A DNA stretch of 64,000 nt from Tridacna crocea (taxonomy: Eukaryota; Mollusca; Bivalvia; Cardiida; Cardiidae): positions 30,779,210-30,843,209 of the forward strand of contig OX031073.1 in the NCBI GenBank assembly GCA_943736015.1, given 5' to 3'. The notes under the pieces were generated by a model, which searched no databases, was not told the origin of the DNA, and saw nothing but the letters and a program-made list of their open reading frames with translations. Shown here piece after piece: positions 3,970 through 50,930 of the stretch; the stretch's first letter is position 1; each line of letters opens with the position of its first letter. Both the position numbers and the translations under genes were made by a program.

Positions 3970-5315
3970 CAGGGTGACCCAAGAAAAATGAGACCCATGA
4001 ACATGTTAATAAAAACTTTAATTTTCAGGCTACAGAAACCAAACATCACACATGTTATCTTGACTTAACGCAAGGCCTGCACACCAAGTTTCATTAGTCA
4101 GCGCTTATCACTTTCTGTTTAATGACGTCTTTCCATAATGTGCTCAAAATGAGCCCCTCGGCGCTGGCGGCACACTTTAACACGACACACGAAATTCTCA
4201 ATGACTCAAACGCACTCCTCCTTTGGAATCTCACGAATCTTAGCAGTTATGGCCTCCTTCAACTAGTGAATGTTTTGGGGATTATTCCTATAGACATTGT
4301 CTTTGAGGTAGCCCCATAGGTAGAAATCCGGGGGGTTCAGGTCTGGCGAGTGTGAAGACCATTCAGGGTCACACCTCCGACTGATAAGGCGATCCTGGAA
4401 GTGTTCGCGCAGCCAGTTCAGCGAGTCATTTGAGGTGTGGGGAGTTGCCCCATCCTGCTGAAACCATTGATCCTCCCTTACAAACCCCCTTAGTCGGCCG
4501 AGTACAGCCCAAAACTTGCGGAGAACCCCTAGGTAACGCTCTGTGTTCACATTGACTGCACGCTCGTTCTCATCCTCAAACCAGAATGGCCTGATGATTC
4601 CATGTGTAGATATTGCAACCCACACAGTGCACTTAATGGAATGAAGAGGCCTCTGTAGGCAGTCCTGGGATGGGGTGGGGTAGTGCCCGAGAAGACGTTA
4701 TTCTTTGAGATTACATGTCCAGACAGAAGGAAATGAGCTTCATCTGAAAACCACAGGTTATTCAAGAAGTCTGGGTCCTCCTCAATCTTATGGCAAAACC
4801 AATCACACATAACCTCACGATTCCTCATGTCAGCAGCGGTGAGTTTATGTTTGATCTGTATCCTGTAAGGGCACAGCTGCAGATCATTGATTAGAATTCT
4901 CCGTACAGACTCGCGAGGAATGCCAAGCTCCTGGCTCCGACGCCGAACAGACCTCCCTGGACTGTGCAGAACTGAATCTCTGATAGTCCTGAAGTTCTAT
5001 TGGGTCCTTGAACTCTTTGGACGACCTGAATGAGTACTTATTGACCCACCCACAGATCTGTGCTTTTTGTGGATAATCACGACGCTGAAATTGTTTTCTG
5101 AAGCAAGCTTTCACAGTAACAATCGATTTTGTCTCATAATACGTCTCTACAGAAAATGTCTTTTCTGCAACTTTCCAAGGCATCTTGCAATCACTACTAC
5201 TCTGAATGTTCATGCAACGATTCTTCTTCATACACCAGAAAATGCAGACCAAAAGCTTGATTAGGAGAGACTATATTGACATATTCATGGATCACATTTT
5301 TTTGGGGTCACCCTG
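3970..5315 (-). mobile_element. full-length mariner-like element, decayed
   Basis: Terminal inverted repeats CAGGGTGACCCAA (left) and TTGGGGTCACCCTG (right) are flanked by TA (3968-3969, 5316-5317), the target of Tc1/mariner elements. Length is 1346 bp, typical for mariner. It lies antisense in the LRP1 intron between exons 3729-3878 and 5951-6065. Confidence 0.93.
4263..5252 (-). pseudogene. mariner-family transposase, frameshifted
   Basis: Three overlapping reverse-strand frames cover the protein. An N-terminal part (about 5252-4884) looks like the DNA-binding region. A middle part (4828-4547) holds the first catalytic Asp in FSDEAHF. A C-terminal part (4625-4263) holds the second Asp in QQDGATPHT and the third in SPDLNPPDFYLWG. 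I count 41 residues between the second and third Asp, a DD41D spacing as in rosa-type mariners rather than the DD34D of classical mariners. At least two frameshifts are needed to read it, and the tail after 4263 is out of frame, so it should be inactive. Confidence 0.88.
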
Positions 5316-9533: not shown

Positions 9534-9762
9534 TTAACCCTTTACCACAAGAGAAAATTTTGGACTGGTCCAAATTCAAAGCATTTGCAGACGACAAAAT
9601 AAATGTGACTGAAAAATTGAAATTTGTTCAGGGAAGGGTTGAAAACACTGTGGGAAAAGGAGAAAATGCTGGTTACCAGCATTTTCTCCTTTTCCCACAG
9701 GGTTTTCAAAAGGCTTCTTTCTCAGGGGCGTCAAAAGTAGGGATTGTGTGGTAATGGGTTAA
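9534..9762 (+). mobile_element. piggyBac-type hairpin MITE, subfamily A (type copy)
   Basis: Reference copy for the family. TTAA, then CCCTTTACCACAAG at the left and CTTTTGGTAATGGG-like end before TTAA at the right. The long arm holds TTTTGGACTGGTCCAAATTC and TTTGCAGACGACAAAATAAA. The stem runs from AAAACACTGTGGGAAAAGG to its complement with one mismatch, about 32 nt per side, centred on a single T in TGCTGGTTACCAGCA. No coding capacity. TTAA target and CCC ends fit piggyBac, whose transposase cuts and rejoins precisely at TTAA. Confidence 0.92.
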
Positions 9763-15185: not shown

Positions 15186-16332
15186 AGCTCACCTGAGCAC
15201 AAAGTGCTCATGGTGAGCTATTGTGATTGCGCTGTGTCTGTCGCCCATTTTCAACTTTTTACCTTGTGTACGCTCTAGAGGCCACATTTTCAGTCGGATA
15301 CTCATGAAAGTTGGTCAGGATGTTTGTCTGGATGATATCTCAGATGAGTTCGAAAATGGGTCATGTCAGGTCAAAAACTAGGTCACTAGGTAAAATCTTA
15401 GAAAAACCTTGAGTACACTCTAGAGGCCACATTTTCAGTCCAAAATTCTCGAAAGTTGGTCAGAATATTTGTCTTTATGATATCTTGGATGAGTTTGAAA
15501 ATGGGTCATGTGGAGTCAAAAACTAGGTCACCAAGTCAAATGTTAGAAAAACCTTTTGCAGGCTCTAGAAGCCACATTTTCTGTCCAAAACTCTTGTAAG
15601 TTGGTCAGAATGTTTGCCTTGATGATATATTAGACGAGTTTGAAAATGGGTCATTGGGGGTTAAAAACTAGGTCACCAGGTCAAATCTTAGAAAAACCTT
15701 GTATATGCTCTGGATGCCACATTTTCAGTCCAAAACTCTTGAAAATTAGTCAGAATGTTTGCCTTTATAATATCTTGGATGAGTTTGAAAATGGGTCATG
15801 TTGGGTAAAAAACTGGGTCAATAGGTCAAATGTTATAAACACCTTTTGTATGCTCTGGAGGACACATTTCCAGTCTGATACTCCTAAAACTTGTTCATAC
15901 TATTTGTCCTGGTGATACCTTGAATGAGTTTGAAAATGGGTCATGTGGAGTCAAAAACTAGGTCAATGGGTCAAATATTAGAAAAACCTTGTGTACTATC
16001 TAGAGGCTACATTTTCTGCCTGATACTCTTCAGACTTGGTCAGAATGTTTGTTTTGGTGATGTCTCAAAAGAGTTTGATAATGGGTAATTGTCGGGTCCA
16101 AAACTAGGTCACTTGGTGAAATCTTAGAAAAACCTTTTGTACGCTGTAGAGGCCACATTTTCAGTCCCGTACTCAGAAACTTGATCAGAATGTTTGTCTT
16201 ACTGATATCTCAAAAGTGTTTGATGATGGGAAATGTCTGATAAAAAACTAGGTCACTGGGAAACTAGATGGTGCATGTTTGGTCAATAGACTCAGGTGAG
16301 CGATTTCAGTGCCATCAAGGCCCTCTTGTTTT
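15186..16332 (+). mobile_element. tandem-core (pearl/Helitron-like) element, complete
   Basis: The left end folds (AGCTCACCTGAGCAC pairs with GTGCTCATGGTGAGCT). The right end is CTCAGGTGAGCGATTTCAG, then a GGCC hairpin and CTCTTGTT. Between them about seven tandem units of about 148 bp start CTCTAGAGGCCACATTTTC and contain GTCAAAAACTAGGTCAC. No coding capacity. Tandem cores with conserved flanks resemble the bivalve pearl elements; the hairpin end and lack of obvious target duplication are Helitron-like. Class uncertain. It lies early in the last LRP1 intron. Confidence 0.8.
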
Positions 16333-26134: not shown

Positions 26135-27707
26135 TATACGCCCGTCGAAGACGGGACGTATTATGGGATCACCCGTGGCGGGCGGGCGGGCGTCCGGGCG
26201 GGCGGGCGGGCGGGCGGCGTCCAGTTCTTTGTCCGGAGCATATCTCCAAAACTATACAAGCTAGGGTTATGAAATTTCATGGGTGGATAGATCTCATCGA
26301 GGCGGAGTGCAGTGCACAGGAATCATAACTCTTGCTCGCTTAATTTTTGAGTTATTGCCCTTTGTTGTTTTTCATACTTCAATTTTGTCCGGAGCATATC
26401 TCCAAAACTATACTAGCTAGGGTTATGAAATTTCATGGGTGGATAGATCTCATCGAGGGGGAGTGCAGTGCACAGGAATCATAACTCTTGCTTGCTTAAT
26501 TTTTGAGTTATTGCCCTTTGTTGTTTTTCATACTTGAATTTTGTCCGGAGCATATCTCCAAAACTATACTACCTAGGGTTATGAAATTTCATGGGTGGAT
26601 AGATCTTATTGAGGGGGAGTGCAGTGCACAGGAATCATAACTCTTGCTTGCTTAATTTTTGAGTTATTGCCCTTTGTTGTTTTTCATACTTGAATTTTGT
26701 CCGGAGCATATCTCCAAAACTATACTAGCTACGGTTATGAAATTTCATGGGTGGATAGATCTCACTGAGGGGGAGTGCAGTGCACAAGAATCATAACTCT
26801 TGCTCGCTTAATTTTTGAGTTATTGCCCTTTGTCATTTTTTATACTTGAATTTTGTCCGGTGAATATCTCCAAAACTATACTAGCTAGGATTATGAAATT
26901 TCATGGGTGGATAGATCTCACCGAGGCAGAGTGCAGTGCACAGGAATCATAACTCTTGCTTGCTTAATTTTTGAGTTATTGCCCTTTGTTGTTTTTCATA
27001 CTTGATTTTTGACCGAAGCATATCTCCAATACTATACTACCTAGGGTTATGAAATTTCATGGGTGGATAGATCTCATCGATGGGGAGTGCAGTGCACACA
27101 AATCACAACTCTTGCTTGCTTAATTTTTGAGTTATTGCTCTTTGTTGTTTTTCATACTTGAATTTTGTCCGGAGCATATCTTCAGAACTATAGTAGCTAG
27201 GGTTATGAAATTTCATGGGTGGATAGATCTCACTGAGGGCGAGTGCAGTGCACAAGAATCATAACTCTTGCTTTCTTAATTTTTCAGTTATTGCCCTTTG
27301 TCATTTTTTATACTTGAATTTTGTCCGGTGAATATCTCCAAAACTATACTAGCTAGGGTTATGAAATTTCATGGGTGGATAGATCTCATCAAGGGGGAGT
27401 GCAGTGCATAGGAATCATAACTCTTGCTTGCTTAACTTTTGAGTTATTGCCCTTTGTTGTTTTTCATACTTGAATTTTGTCCAGAGCATATCTCTAAAAC
27501 TATACTAGCTAGGGTTATGAAATTTCATTGGTGGATAGATCTCATCAAGGGGGAGTGCAGTGCACAGAAATCACAACTCTTGCTTGCTTAATTTTTGAGT
27601 TATTGCCCTTTGTTGTTTTTCATACTTGAATTTTGTCTGGTGCATGCCCCAGCTTTACAACTTGGGGTAAGACGGGCGTATCTTGCGACAATTTGCCGCT
27701 CTTGTTG
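26135..27707 (+). mobile_element. tandem-core element (CGCCCGTC type)
   Basis: The left end TATACGCCCGTCGAAGACGG is a hairpin. About nine units of about 156 bp follow, each with GTCCGGAGCATATCTCCAAA and GAGTGCAGTGCACA. The right end has GACGGGCGTATCTTGCGACA and GCTCTTGTTG. The architecture is that of 15186-16332 with an unrelated core. Confidence 0.8.
26177..26219 (+). repeat. G-rich (GGGC)n tract
   Basis: About nine runs of three G separated by C or GTCC, near the left end of the tandem-core element. On the + strand (the LRP1 sense strand) this could fold as a G-quadruplex. Confidence 0.75.
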
Positions 27708-29758: not shown

Positions 29759-29984
29759 TTAACCCTTTCCCAAACGACAAATTTTGGACTCTTCCAAACC
29801 AAAAGAGTTTGAGGACGACAATTTTAGATTTGGAAAAAATGCCAGAAAGTTCTCAAAAAGGGTAGAAAACACTGGGAAAAGGAGACATTGCTCGTTACAA
29901 GCAATTTCTCCTTTTCCCACGGTGTTTTCAAAAGACTTTTACTGCAGGAACGTAAAAACCAGGGCTTGTTTGGGAAAGGGTTAA
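29759..29984 (+). mobile_element. piggyBac-type hairpin MITE, subfamily B
   Basis: Both TTAA; long arm TTTTGGACTCTTCCAAACC; stem slightly shortened (ACACTGGGAAAAGGAGAC). Confidence 0.88.
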
Positions 29985-39760: not shown

Positions 39761-41120
39761 CTCACCTCATGAGGGAGTGCTCGAGGTGAGCAGTTGTGAT
39801 TGTGCTGTGTTGGGCATCTGTCATCAACTTTTTAGCTCAACTGAGCACAAAGTGCTCAGAGCGAGCTATTGTGATAGTGCTGTGTCCATCGTCCGTCGTC
39901 AACTTTTACCTTGTGTATGCTTTAGAGGCCACATTTTCAGTCTGATACTCATGAAACTTGGTCAGAATGTTTGCCTCAATGAAATCTCGAACGAGGTAAA
40001 AAATGGGTCATGTCAGGTCGTGAACTAGGTCACTAGGTCAAATCTAAGAAAAATCTTGTGTACACTCTAGAGGCCACATTTTCAGTCCGATACTCATGAA
40101 AGTTAGTCAGAATGTTTGCCTTGATGATATCTTGGAAGATTTCCAAAATGGGTCATATCAGGTCAAAAAGTAGGTTACTAGGTCAAATCTTAGAAAAACA
40201 TTGTGTATGCTCTAGAGGCCACATTTTGAGTCCAAAACTCTTGAAAGTTGGTCAGAATCTTTGTATTGATGATATCGCAGATGATTTGAAAATGGGTCAT
40301 GTCGGGTCAAAACTAGGTCACCAGGTCAAATCTAAGAAAAACCTTATGTACGCTCTATAGGCCACATTTTCAGTCCAAAACTCTTGTAAGTTGGTCAGAA
40401 TGTTTGTCTTGATGATATCTCAGATGAGTTTGAAAAGGATCACGTTGGGTTGAAAACTAGGTTACCAGGTCAAATCTTAGAAAGACCTTGTATATGCTCT
40501 GGATGCCACATTTCCAGTCCAACACTCTTGAAAATTGGTCAGAATTTTTGCCTAGATAATATCTTGGATGAGTTTGAAAATGGGTCATGTTGGCTCAAAA
40601 ACTAGGTCAATAGGTTAAATGTTATAAAATCTTTGTGTCGGCTCTGGAGGACACATTTTCAGTCTGATACTCCTGAAACTTGTTAATATTTGTCTTGGTG
40701 ATACCTTGAATAAAAATGAAAAATGGGTCATGTAGAGTCAAAAACTAGGTCACTGGTGAAATAATAGAAAAACGTGTACATTCTAGAGGCCACATTTTCT
40801 GCCCGATACTCTTCAAACTTGATCAGAATGTTTGTTTTGGTGATGTCTCAAAAGAGTTTGATAATGGGTAATTGTCAGGTCCAAAAGTAGGTCACTTGGT
40901 CAAATCTTAGAAAAACCTTTTGTACGCTGTAGAGGCCACATTTCAGTCCAATACTCATGAAATTTGGTCAGAATGTTTGTCTTACTGATATCTCAAAAGT
41001 GTTCGATAATGGGTAATGTCTGATAAAAAACTAGGTCACTAGGAAACTAGATTGAAAATGATTCATGTTTGGTCAATAGACTCAGGTGAGCGATTTCAGG
41101 GCCATCATGGCTCTCTTGTT
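39761..41120 (+). mobile_element. tandem-core element with doubled 5' end
   Basis: Two left termini follow each other (CTCACCTCATGAGGGAGTGC at 39761 and AGCTCAACTGAGCACAAAGT at 39834). About eight units of about 144 bp follow, homologous to those at 15186-16332. The right end CTCAGGTGAGCGATTTCAGG with its hairpin closes the element. Confidence 0.8.
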
Positions 41121-42384: not shown

Positions 42385-43130
42385 TCACTACCAGACAATA
42401 AAATTATGGACCTGCCCAAACTCAAATCGCTTCCACATGACAAAGTGAACATGAATCTAACACTGAAATTTAGTCACTGAGAGAAAGAAAATGTGAGAGG
42501 TGGAGATATAATTTTTTTTTAAATTCTTTTGAAAACATTGTGGGAATATGAAAAATGCAAACTGCAAGCATGTCGCAAAATTTTGTCAAACACACAATAA
42601 TCAAATGGACCTATCCAATACATGTATACACAGTTATATCTTTCTTAGAAGACAACGTTATGGAGCTGTCCAAACTCAAAGCACTTGCAGTAACAAAATT
42701 AACACGAATCAAAAATTGAAATTCAGTCGCTGTGGGGAAAAAATAGTTTGGGAAAATGGAGAATATGCAGCATTTTTCTCCTTTTCCTACAATATTTTCC
42801 AAAGTCTTCTTTTTCGAAATTATTAAAACCTGGTATTGTATGGTGAAGGTATAAAGGGAAAATATTTGGACTGGCCCAACAAACGTTTGACATTCACTCA
42901 CATTCTAAAATAAACACACATGCAAAGAAAACAATGAAATGTATACAAATCGTGAATAGATGTCTGTGTCTTATTTTTCCAAAATGAACTGACCCATTAC
43001 TACCATAGTGTTTTCCAACCATGATGGAAGGTTTAAAAATCATTGATGGAAAAGGAAGTCTGTTAACAGCATTTTCTCCTTCGCCCACAATGTTTTCCAT
43101 CATTTCAAAAAAAGCTTTCCATCTTTGGAG
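42385..43130. mobile_element. decayed MITE cluster
   Basis: Long arms at 42385-42500 and 42650-42740 (CTGTCCAAACTCAAAGCAC), a stem relic near 42730-42800, and a half copy at 43000-43130 with CATTTTCTCCTTCGCCCACA. Confidence 0.6.
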
Positions 43131-43467: not shown

Positions 43468-43696
43468 TTAACCCATTACTACACAATCCCTACTTTTGAC
43501 GCCCCTGAGAAAGAAGCCTTTTGAAAACATTGTGGGAAAAGGAGAAAATGCTGGTAACCAGCATTTTCTCCTTTTCTCACAATGTTTTCTACCCTTCACA
43601 AAACAAATTACAAATTTTCAGTCACTTTTATTTTGTCGTCTGCAAATGCTTTCGATTTGGACAAACCTAAAATTTTGTCGTTTGGTAATGAGTTAA
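43468..43696 (-). mobile_element. piggyBac-type hairpin MITE, subfamily A
   Basis: Complete, both TTAA, low divergence. It directly precedes the dyad-motif array. Confidence 0.9.
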
Positions 43697-43727
43697 AAAA
43701 AGAGAGAGAAAAATAAAACCAGAATAA

Positions 43728-44995
43728 GTAGACTCATCCAAATCTAAGAAATTGAAGCATCATTTGTTCAAGGCGGAAAAAAAAGTCAACTGTGATAGTC
43801 TTTACAAAAATAGGCTCACTGAAAATAAATGGACTCTTCCAATTTCAGTGAATTTTAAGGTCTTAAACATTGATTGAGTGGACTTATCCAAATTAATTCA
43901 CTTGTTAATGAAATGGACTTTCCAAAATTCAATGATTTGTAAAAGAACTAGAAATATATTAAATTGACTCTTCCAGAATATTTAATTTTTAAGAAAAATG
44001 TAAGATGAAATTAAGTGGACCCTTCCAAATTCAATGAATTCCAAGTAAACAGAATAAATTTAAAATGGACTCTTCCAACTCAGGAATTTGTAAGAGAAAT
44101 GAATTTTTTTAATAGAATGGACCTGTCCAAATTCAAAGAATGATGAGAAACTGCATTTAAGTAGAATGGACTCTTCCAAATTCAATGATAAGCAATGCAA
44201 ATGAAAAAAGCTAGAATGGACTCTTCCAATTTCGATAATTTCTACCCTAAAACTTGCTGAAAATGAAATCGACCCTTCCAAATTGAAAGAGAAATGAGAC
44301 CTCAAAAAATGAGTAGAATGGACTCTTCCATATTTTAAAAAAGACCCTGAAAATAAATAATAGACTCTTCCAAATTGAATGGATAGACAAAAAGTAAAAT
44401 GGACTCTTCCATCTTAAAAAATATAAATGAATATAGTGGACTCTTCCAAATTCAATGATAGGCGATAGCATCGAAAAAAGCTAGAATGGACTCTTCCAAT
44501 GTCAATAATTTCTACACTAAAACTTGCTTAAAATGAAATCGACTCTTCCAAATTGAATGAATAATGATACCCCAAAAAATAAGTAGAATGGACTCTTCCA
44601 CATTTAAAAAAAACCCTGAAAATAAATGATAGACTCTTCCAAATTCAATGGATAGACCAAAAGGTAAAATGGATTCTTCCATCTTTAAAAAATATATATA
44701 ATGGACTCTTCCAAATTCAATGACAAGTAAGATGTTAATTTTGGAAGAATGGACTCTTCCAACTTTACTTTAATTATTGGACTCTTCCAACTTTTTACGT
44801 TAAAAGCTTAGAATTTGGCCAGGTCCAAGTTTTTTTGTAGTCTGAAAGGGTAAACAATAAATGAACTCTTCCACATTTCAGAAATTGGAAAAAGATTTAT
44901 TAAATAAAGTGAACTGTTCCAGGGGTAGAATTTGATATGAATATACTGGCATTGCAAAATGATAAATGGAACCTTCCAAGTTAAATGGACTGACT
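43728..44995 (+). repeat. irregular array of dyad motif TGGACTCTTCCA, ~26 copies
   Basis: The motif TGGACTCTTCCAA (variants AGACTCTTCC, CGACCCTTCC, GGACCTGTCC) recurs every 30-60 bp with AT-rich spacers. Many copies read GACTCTTCCAAATTCAATG. The motif is a dyad TGGA-N4-TCCA. A block of about 270 bp is duplicated (AATTCAATGATAAGCAATG near 44178 and AATTCAATGATAGGCGATAG near 44448). The same GGACTCTTCCAAA occurs in the long arm of subfamily B, and GGACTGGTCCAAATTGAAAG in subfamily A. MITEs lie on both sides. Confidence 0.88.
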
Positions 44996-45009
44996 TGTTA
45001 ACCCTCACA

Positions 45010-45315
45010 AATTTTAAAGTAAATTTTATAAATCATGAGAATGAAGCCTTTTTGAAAGATTGTGAGAAAAAGGAGAAAATGCTCCTATACATTACAATAA
45101 TAAATTCTATCAGTCAATAGAAAGAAGCTTTTGAAAACATTGTGGGAAAAGGAGAAAATGCTTGTAACCAGAATTTTCTCCTTTTTCCACATTGTTTTTC
45201 TACTCTATCAAAGCAAACTTCCATAATTTGAGAAACATTTGAGTTTTTTTTTCTGCAAATACTTTGAATTTGGACAAGTTTTATTTTTTGTTGTTGTAAG
45301 GTAAAGGGTCAAATG
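45010..45315 (-). mobile_element. decayed MITE plus MITE, subfamily A
   Basis: A half hairpin (GATTGTGAGAAAAAGGAGAA) at 45010-45090 is followed by a - copy with core ATGCTTGTAACCAGAATT and a decayed right end GGTAAAGGGTCAA. Confidence 0.65.
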
Positions 45316-46138: not shown

Positions 46139-46371
46139 TTAAACCTTTTCCCAAATGACAAATTTTGGACTCTTCCAAACTGAAAGAGTTTGCAGACGAC
46201 AATTTTAGATTTGGAGAAAATGGTAGAAAGTTCTTGAAAAGGGTAGAAAACACTGTGGGAAAAGGAGAAATTGCTCAAATGTTACGAGCAATTTCTCCTT
46301 TTCCCACCGTGTTTTCAAAAGACTTTAACTGCAGACACGTAAAAACCAGGGCTTGCCTGGGAAAGAGTTAA
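46139..46371 (+). mobile_element. piggyBac-type hairpin MITE, subfamily B
   Basis: Both TTAA; the loop is enlarged (ATTGCTCAAATGTTACGAGC). Confidence 0.88.
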
Positions 46372-46492: not shown

Positions 46493-46664
46493 ACTACGTG
46501 CGCACGCAGTAGCTAATACGTGCGCACATATTAGTTATTACGTGCGCACGCAGTAGCTAATACATGCGCACGTAATAACTAATACGTGCGCACGCAGTAG
46601 TATTACGTGCGCACGTATTGGTTATGACGTGTGCACGTAATAACTAATACGTGCGCACGTAATG
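46493..46664. repeat. ~22-bp array of ACGTGCGCACGT palindromes
   Basis: Eight units of TACGTGCGCACG followed by CAGTAGCTAA, TATTAGTTAT or TAATAACTAA. The alternating purine/pyrimidine core could adopt Z-DNA, and it is CpG-rich in AT-rich surroundings. Confidence 0.88.
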
Positions 46665-46790: not shown

Positions 46791-47019
46791 TTAACCCATT
46801 ACCGCACAATCCCTACTTTTGATGCCCCTGTGAAAGAAGCCTTTAGAAAACATTGTGGGAAAAGGAGAAAATGCTGGTAACCAGCATTTTCTCCTTTTCC
46901 CACAATGTTTTCTACCCTTCACAAAACAAATTTCAAATTTTGAGTCACTTTTATTTTGTCGTCTGCAAATGCTTTCAATTTGGGCCAGTCTAAAATATTG
47001 TCGTTTGGTAATGAGTTAA
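46791..47019 (-). mobile_element. piggyBac-type hairpin MITE, subfamily A
   Basis: Complete, both TTAA. It was inserted next to tandem-core sequence that seems to resume at 47020-47085 (GGTCAAAAGG-like, then TTCAGGGCTC and CTCTCGTTTGG). Confidence 0.9.
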
Positions 47020-47212
47020 AATGGACATGTTTAGTCAAAAGGCTCTGCTGGGCGACTTCAGGGCTCTCACGACTCTCTCGTTTGGTGTGGCGTTTCTGCC
47101 CGAGTACAATTCAGAGGCCATGTTTTCAGTCTATACTCAAATGATTTCTCAGACTCTGGTCACCTTGGTGAAACATTATCTCACTGTGACAAATCTGAGG
47201 AAAATGTATATG

Positions 47213-49780: not shown

Positions 49781-50930
49781 AAACTTTGTGGAAGTCCACT
49801 AAGAGATGCTACATGCCAAATATCAAAGCTCTATGCCTTCTAGTTTCAGAAAAGAAGAAATTTAAAGTTTTCCTTCTTTGTTCCTATGTTTCAAACTTAG
49901 AACCCACGGGGCAGGGCAAGTTTTGACCCCAGGGACGTATGAAGAAACTTTGTGGAAGTCCACTAAGAGATGCTACATACCAAACATCAAAGCGCTACAC
50001 CTTCTAGTTTCAGAGAAGAAGAAATTTAAAGTTTTCCTTCATTGTTCCTATGTTTCAAACTTGTGACCCTCGGGGCAGGACCACTTTTAACCTCAGGAGC
50101 ATCATATGAACAAACATTGTAGAACTGCACTGGGAGATCCTACTTACCAAATATCAAAGCTCTACATCTTCTAGTTTCAGAGAAAAAGAATTTTAAAGTT
50201 TCCTTCTTTGTTCCTGTTTCAAACTTGTGACACCTTGGACAGGGCCAGTTTTGACCCCAGGAGCATCAAATGAACAATCTTGGTAGAGGTTTACAAGGAG
50301 ATGCTACATACCAAATATTAAAGCTCTGCATCTCCGAGTTTCAGAGAAGAAGAATTTTAAAGTTTTCCTTCTTTATTTCTGTGTTTCAAACTTGTGACCC
50401 CTGGGATGGGGCCAGTTTTGACCCCAGGGGCATCAAATGAACAATCTTGGTAGAGGTCCACTAGGAGATGCTACATACCAAATATCAAAGCTCAACGCCA
50501 TCTAGTTTCAGAGAGAAGAATTTTAAAGTTTTCCTTCTTTGTTCCTATGTTTCAAACTTGTGACCCCCCAGGGCGGGGCCAGTTTTGACCAAGGGGCATA
50601 ATATGAACAATCTTTGTAGCGATCTACTAGGAGATGCTACATACCAAATTTCAAAGCTCTACGCCTTCTAGTTTTAGAGAAGAGGATTTTCAAAGATTTT
50701 GCTATTTTTTTCCTTTTGGTTGCCACGGCAACCAGAGTTATGGGTGGAATATATTCAATCTCTTGAACAACTTTGGTAGAGCTTCACCCAAGGAACATCC
50801 CTGCCAAGTTTCATCAAGATTGGTTCAGTGGTTTAGGAAGAGAAAATGTTTAAAGAAACTGTGGACGCCAGATGCCAGACAACGGGGGATCACAAAAGCT
50901 CACCATGAGCACTTTGTGCTCAGGTGAGCT
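49781..50930 (-). mobile_element. tandem-core element, reverse orientation
   Basis: Read in reverse it starts AGCTCACCTGAGCACAAAGT (50930) and has about seven units of about 160 bp with GTAGCATCTCC and CCCCAGGGG, the core type of 20370-20775. The expected right terminus is missing at 49781. Confidence 0.78.

Follow-up and report, generated by a model that had tools for sequence, protein, structure and literature searches.

A decayed dimeric minisatellite, probably derived from a MITE arm, with a duplicated higher-order block and a likely slower-changing 12-base core in Tridacna crocea

Satellite DNAs with a possible origin in transposable elements have been described. As reviewed elsewhere, the Xenopus satellites Xstir and miDNA4 are tandem repeats possibly arising from internal MITE sequence (PMC12628747), and in Drosophila virilis the TIR-220 repeats of Tetris, each of ~220 bp, are described as lying inside the terminal inverted repeats (TIRs) of the transposon (PMC4079207). 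Published accounts further record, for the bivalve pearl/DTC84 elements and BIV160 satellites, a palindrome or motifs conserved in diverged monomers (PMC5139131) and, for alpha satellite, the CENP-B box, a 17-bp motif whose protein is known (PMC5615363). Here we analyse a stretch of 64,000 nucleotides of Tridacna crocea DNA (the window), in which 26 units sharing a 12-base near-palindrome, all on one strand, form an array of ~1.3 kb (Table 1). Like Xstir and miDNA4, these are tandem repeats possibly derived from a MITE, but they would represent only ~24-50 bp of one arm and are strongly decayed, with a core conserved above the rest, and an enclosing MITE was not found at the locus (PMC12628747 for comparison). 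As with TIR-220, the tandem unit would come from an inverted-repeat arm, here too supplied by a DNA transposon of the non-autonomous kind; unlike TIR-220, with its ~220-bp repeats inside TIRs, the array has ~50/102-bp units, and no enclosing element was found around it (PMC4079207). The pearl/DTC84 elements and BIV160 satellites are alike in being short satellite-like arrays associated with MITEs in which a palindrome or motifs are conserved in diverged monomers (PMC5139131), and the CENP-B box is alike as a short motif retained in satellite monomers, although that box has 17 bp and a known protein and the array core is a putative site of 12 bp (PMC5615363). MITE-derived tandem repeats are a kind already described (PMC12628747, PMC4079207), of which the array is probably a further example.

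Scanning the + strand from 43700 to 45010 with ATGGACTCTTCCAA at up to five mismatches returned 29 sites, of which two with five mismatches each (43795 and 44099) were removed by eye as chance occurrences and one (44815) was reassigned from unit to MITE remnant, leaving 26 units, as the first-pass annotation had approximately counted. At up to two mismatches, 21 sites lie on the + strand between 43728 and 44995 and none on the - strand, against a chance expectation of 0.005 (mean of 200 dinucleotide shuffles). Units are spaced at 28-57 bp, with a mode of 49-52 bp and two wide gaps of 101 bp (43728 to 43829) and 84 bp (across the MITE remnant at 44815). That annotation had described the motif as TGGA-N4-TCCA with a free centre, a view contradicted by column counts over 25 units (six of them duplicates within a higher-order repeat, HOR; unit 43913, in which one central base is missing, excluded), in which the centre reads CTCT in 23, 21, 22 and 22 units at its successive positions. 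Six positions (T1, A4, T9, C10, C11 and A12) are invariant in all 25 units, HOR duplicates counted, and the left half-site is looser than the right, with G2 in 19 units (A, C or T in the others) and G3 in 23.

The intervening sequence, previously regarded as unrelated from unit to unit, is in fact partly homologous. Among 319 spacer pairs that are not HOR-equivalent, 61 score Z > 2 and two Z < -2, and all six HOR-equivalent pairs score Z 2.4-10.1 (60 shuffles each, with 44815 still treated as a unit boundary). When the cores are masked, autocorrelation over the whole array rises to a self-identity of 0.494 at lag 270 (+6.8 sd) and 0.418 at lag 102 (+3.4 sd) about a mean of 0.342, and TRF with default settings reports a 270-bp period at 44165-44727. 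Two types of unit, a and b, assigned by eye from the spacers, alternate along the array: type-a units keep about ten further bases after the core, roughly AATTSAAWGA, and type-b units have no clear common block downstream of it, so that the proposal that only the dyad is conserved stands for type b and fails for type a. Because lags 102 and 270 stand out even with the cores masked, the two types alternate and a 270-bp block is duplicated, we class the array as a dimeric minisatellite, now decayed, that contains a higher-order repeat and is made of head-to-tail units that are homologous with their spacers included.

Table 1. Coordinates within the window of the array, its internal blocks and the MITE copies near it.
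Feature	Position	Strand	Details
Subfamily A MITE, nearly full length, immediately upstream of the array	43468-43696	+	
Unit array	43728-44979	+	26 same-strand units, core TGGACTCTTCCA
Detectable 102-bp dimer (type a + type b)	43907-44375	+	Relaxed TRF, period 102, 4.7 copies, 62% matches
Older related block	43909-44110	+	Four units, spacing 50-52-50 as in the HOR
HOR copy 1	44162-44431	+	Six units, 270 bp
HOR copy 2	44432-44704	+	Six units
MITE 3'-end remnant	44802-44855	+	nhmmer, 41-copy profile, positions 181-234, E 2.1e-4
Degenerate or truncated MITE directly downstream, begins TTAACCC	44998-45083	+	Repeat family match 44998-45070, 62%; further match 45036-45083
MITE subfamily B copy	46148-46371	-	With TTTTGGACTCTTCCAAACTG

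The MITE in question is ~230 bp long, and 41 near-full-length copies could be aligned from the 64 kb (e.g. 46791-47021), of which 34 A and six B copies entered subfamily profiles and one was excluded. It combines terminal inverted repeats (end consensuses TTAACCCTTTACCA and, reversed, TTAACTCTTTACCA) with a TTAA target duplication, TTAA being present at both ends in 26 of the 41 copies, at the 5' end in 35 and at the 3' end in 30, where any position within the last 12 bases was accepted; this TTAA-type element is putatively piggyBac- or Kolobok-like. Its most conserved part is a central hairpin (identity 0.97-0.98 in A), the 35 bases of which have no exact match in viral contigs. By eye in the alignment, one arm only carries a dyad, with consensus TTTGGACCAGTCTAAA in A and TTTGGAAGAGTCCAAA in B, and the reverse complement of the B dyad contains the array 12-mer. 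The dyad reported for the subfamily A arm was recovered exactly, as GGACTGGTCC, at 9560 and 41546; in B the dyad TTTGGACTCTTCCAAA is exact in two of six near-full-length copies (46165 and 29784), and the 20-mer quoted for that arm is exact at 46165 but at 29784 differs just after the dyad. Within the element the dyad is of ordinary conservation: over 16-bp windows it averages an identity of 0.876 in A, against 0.882 for all windows (rank 121 of 222, 34 copies), and of 0.938 in B, against 0.935 (rank 130 of 221, 6 copies), and seven or eight of the eight palindromic pairs are kept in four of the 41 copies. A subterminal transposase site would be a motif constrained in the transposon, and this mid-table position in 34 A and six B copies, together with the restriction to one arm, gives no support to the suggestion that a transposase or host factor recognises the MITE through the dyad.

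Array and MITE nevertheless agree beyond the dyad in type-a units, which supports descent from the MITE. Across nine such units (43913 excluded, three being HOR duplicates), the 11 bases past the core agree with MITE A at 73 of 99 sites (36% in shuffles, P 0.001) and the 25 bases beyond those at 93 of 208 (34% in shuffles, P 0.003); the corresponding figures are 67 of 99 (P 0.002) and 75 of 208 (P 0.017) against MITE B, and 67 of 99 (P 0.001) and 75 of 208 (P 0.22) against an old MITE copy at 42660. Six non-duplicate type-b units show no agreement with the MITE (P 0.24 to 0.65), and seven other units, remnant 44815 included, give P 0.03 to 0.49. When 20 non-redundant units are pooled regardless of type (HOR copy 2 and 43913 excluded, MITE remnant 44815 included), the downstream flank gives P 0.012 for A and 0.052 for B, and the upstream flanks do not match the MITE (P 0.69 and 0.41). 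A profile of the 41 MITE copies matches nine type-a units at E 0.003-0.27; once the cores are masked, the only array matches of the MITE profiles have E 4.4 and 9.2, which is not convincing, and blastn places the array nowhere else in the window at 1e-3. Because the core-masked profiles, the upstream flanks and type b are all unmatched, what joins the array to the MITE comes down to 12 plus 11 bases and a weak tail. The origin from a MITE arm put forward at first pass is thus upheld by the type-a flanks and not by type b or the core-masked search: descent of the array unit from the arm is likely but not proven, and reasonably supported for type a only.

Since the interval 44802-44855 matches the 3' end of the MITE, the apparent unit at 44815 is a MITE remnant that mimics an array unit. 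Its dyad stands roughly in step with its neighbours (38 and 46 bp), and the remnant is oriented opposite to the other MITE matches of the array. Upstream of the array, TATGGA-type dyads at 42406 and 42660 are nearer to the ATGGA of the array than is the A or B consensus; that at 42660 adjoins a MITE match (42667-42815), and that at 42406 resembles the MITE arm by eye only.

The two 270-bp blocks afford a clean internal comparison of how the core and its surroundings have changed. Between HOR copies 1 and 2, two of 72 core sites differ as against 20 of 194 outside (Fisher P 0.048), and all 11 gap columns fall outside the cores, several of them in A runs. By class, the changes amount to 0 of 48 in the half-sites, 2 of 24 in the centre, 3 of 33 in the type-a extension, 3 of 32 in the type-b extension and 14 of 129 in other spacer sequence. 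When the core mask is shifted circularly, a contrast as strong arises at 14 of 277 positions (the true one counted) for substitutions and at 6 of 277 when all changes are considered. Stratified by base class, the contrast has P 0.0075, with 2 of 36 core G/C sites changed against 9 of 45 outside, and none of 36 core A/T sites against 11 of 149. The older block differs from copy 1 at 2 of 46 core and 38 of 135 outside sites, and from copy 2 at 3 of 46 and 37 of 136; the Fisher values for these comparisons (P 0.0004 and 0.003, respectively) are too optimistic because the gapped alignment is anchored by the cores, and when the mask is shifted over the comparison with copy 1, 31 of 220 positions are as good if substitutions alone are counted and 3 of 220 if gaps are added.

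The core therefore likely changes more slowly than the rest, by about fourfold between the young blocks, as judged at one locus with P 0.008-0.05. The extra conservation of the core proposed at first pass is accordingly supported at modest P: the whole unit is not equally conserved, and the even decay that would be expected of a neutral satellite, though it is no defining property of satellites, is not seen. Among seven other arrays in the window that were examined, the one counted as a fair control, of 36 bp and 27 copies, has a best 12-mer whose divergence is 0.58 times that of the remaining sequence; the remaining six reach ratios of 0.00-0.28, as low as in the dyad array, and were discounted as inflated by the choice of a best 12-mer in long or near-identical units. 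Single-unit core variants (TCGAC and TAGAC) are found at matching positions in the two HOR blocks, indicating that neighbouring cores have not been homogenised since the duplication, which argues against rapid core-only homogenisation over that time. Overall, there is modest evidence that something spares the array core.

On balance we favour the view that the array is a decayed minisatellite derived from a MITE arm, with a later HOR duplication and a spared core. A DNA segment carrying a ~24-50-bp piece of the subterminal arm, namely the dyad and bases inside it, would have been tandemly multiplied to give ~50-bp units of two kinds alternating as a ~102-bp dimer; a six-unit block of 270 bp was duplicated later. 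The AT-rich spacers then drifted by substitutions and small insertions or deletions, and the 12-bp core, particularly its TGGA and TCCA halves, took up some four times less change between the two youngest blocks. The tandem and higher-order arrangement, the shared strand and the difference in rate at this single locus are seen directly in the sequence. Growth may have proceeded by unequal exchange or slippage, for which the core could have provided the short stretch of homology; the whole array presumably has no cellular role. Two candidates for the sparing of the core, a less mutable core and a bound host protein, are both compatible with this MITE-arm minisatellite origin.

The first candidate, which we regard as possible though doubtful, invokes no constraint: AT-rich, run-rich spacers would gain mutations and slippage events more quickly than a core free of runs. 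The exclusion of every HOR gap column from the cores, several of these columns lying in A runs, is what such slippage would leave; the contrast nevertheless holds for substitutions at G/C and at A/T sites separately, and survives stratification, which matches base class only.

Rather unlikely, in our estimate, is the second candidate, a host protein that would bind a cluster of TGGA-N4-TCCA sites in dimeric form, as CENP-B does its box in alpha satellite, with selection keeping the cores while the spacers drift. As in a CENP-B-box-like motif, the core is conserved above the rest of the monomer, albeit with the next ten bases of type a also conserved; the half-sites are unchanged between the HOR copies, both core changes falling in the N4, the six invariant positions hold in every unit counted, and the corresponding ratio in the comparable 36-bp array is 0.58. 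Against this stand the single array and single duplication behind the P values, and a unit (43913) with a deleted central base. Moreover, with G2 at 19 of 25 on the left as against 25 of 25 in the right half-site, and with C5 (23 of 25) as conserved as the half-sites, the pattern is not that of a symmetric dyad. Nor does the contrast follow the dyad alone, since the two core substitutions of the older block lie in half-sites and its type-a extension has diverged little (2 of 22). The fuller scenario, in which a MITE arm seeded the array and a host DNA-binding protein independently took it over, placing dimeric sites under selection in the way of a CENP-B box, we hold to be improbable; were the core truly selected, the locus would show in compact form how a repeat derived from a transposon can become a protein-binding cluster. 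An array amplified from sites for the transposase of the TTAA-type MITE itself is very improbable and was rejected, since the dyad, for all that subfamily B carries the same 12-mer in its arm, is of average conservation within the MITE.

Other explanations of the array were also considered. As single-stranded nucleic acid, 44160-44440 (about HOR copy 1) folds like its shuffles (z -0.79, with 45 of 200 as good), and no Rfam family reaches its gathering score within the window. Of six helical periods tested, 10.2 bp gave a nominal P of 0.003, 10.0 bp 0.093 and the others 0.35 or more; helical phasing was rejected, since the dimer period is itself 102 bp and the units are not independent. A coding repeat was set aside, since distances between units, for example 50, 52, 37 and 49, are not divisible by three, and a 117-aa minus-strand frame at 44060-44413 was taken as chance. 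A search for relatives, by two 12-mers 20-45 bp apart, found one viral contig and three genome contigs. TRF classes two of these as tandem repeats, with units of 12 and 42 bp, and the other two have two sites each, 42 and 33 bp apart, respectively; all distances in the four are divisible by three, as expected of coding repeats, and, none being alike by eye, they were taken as unrelated to the array.

Elsewhere in the window, overlapping frames at 4263-5270 on the - strand look transposase-like by eye; in Pfam, one of the three matches the helix-turn-helix family DUF4817 and two have no match. Satellite-like arrays with units of 145, 156 and 164 bp lie at 15261-16257, 39908-41043, 26228-27645 and 49784-50714, the 145-bp family occurring twice. 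A further tandem array, 1.5 kb downstream of the one described here (46495-46663), consists of ~22-bp units with TACGTGCGCACG, which is largely palindromic.
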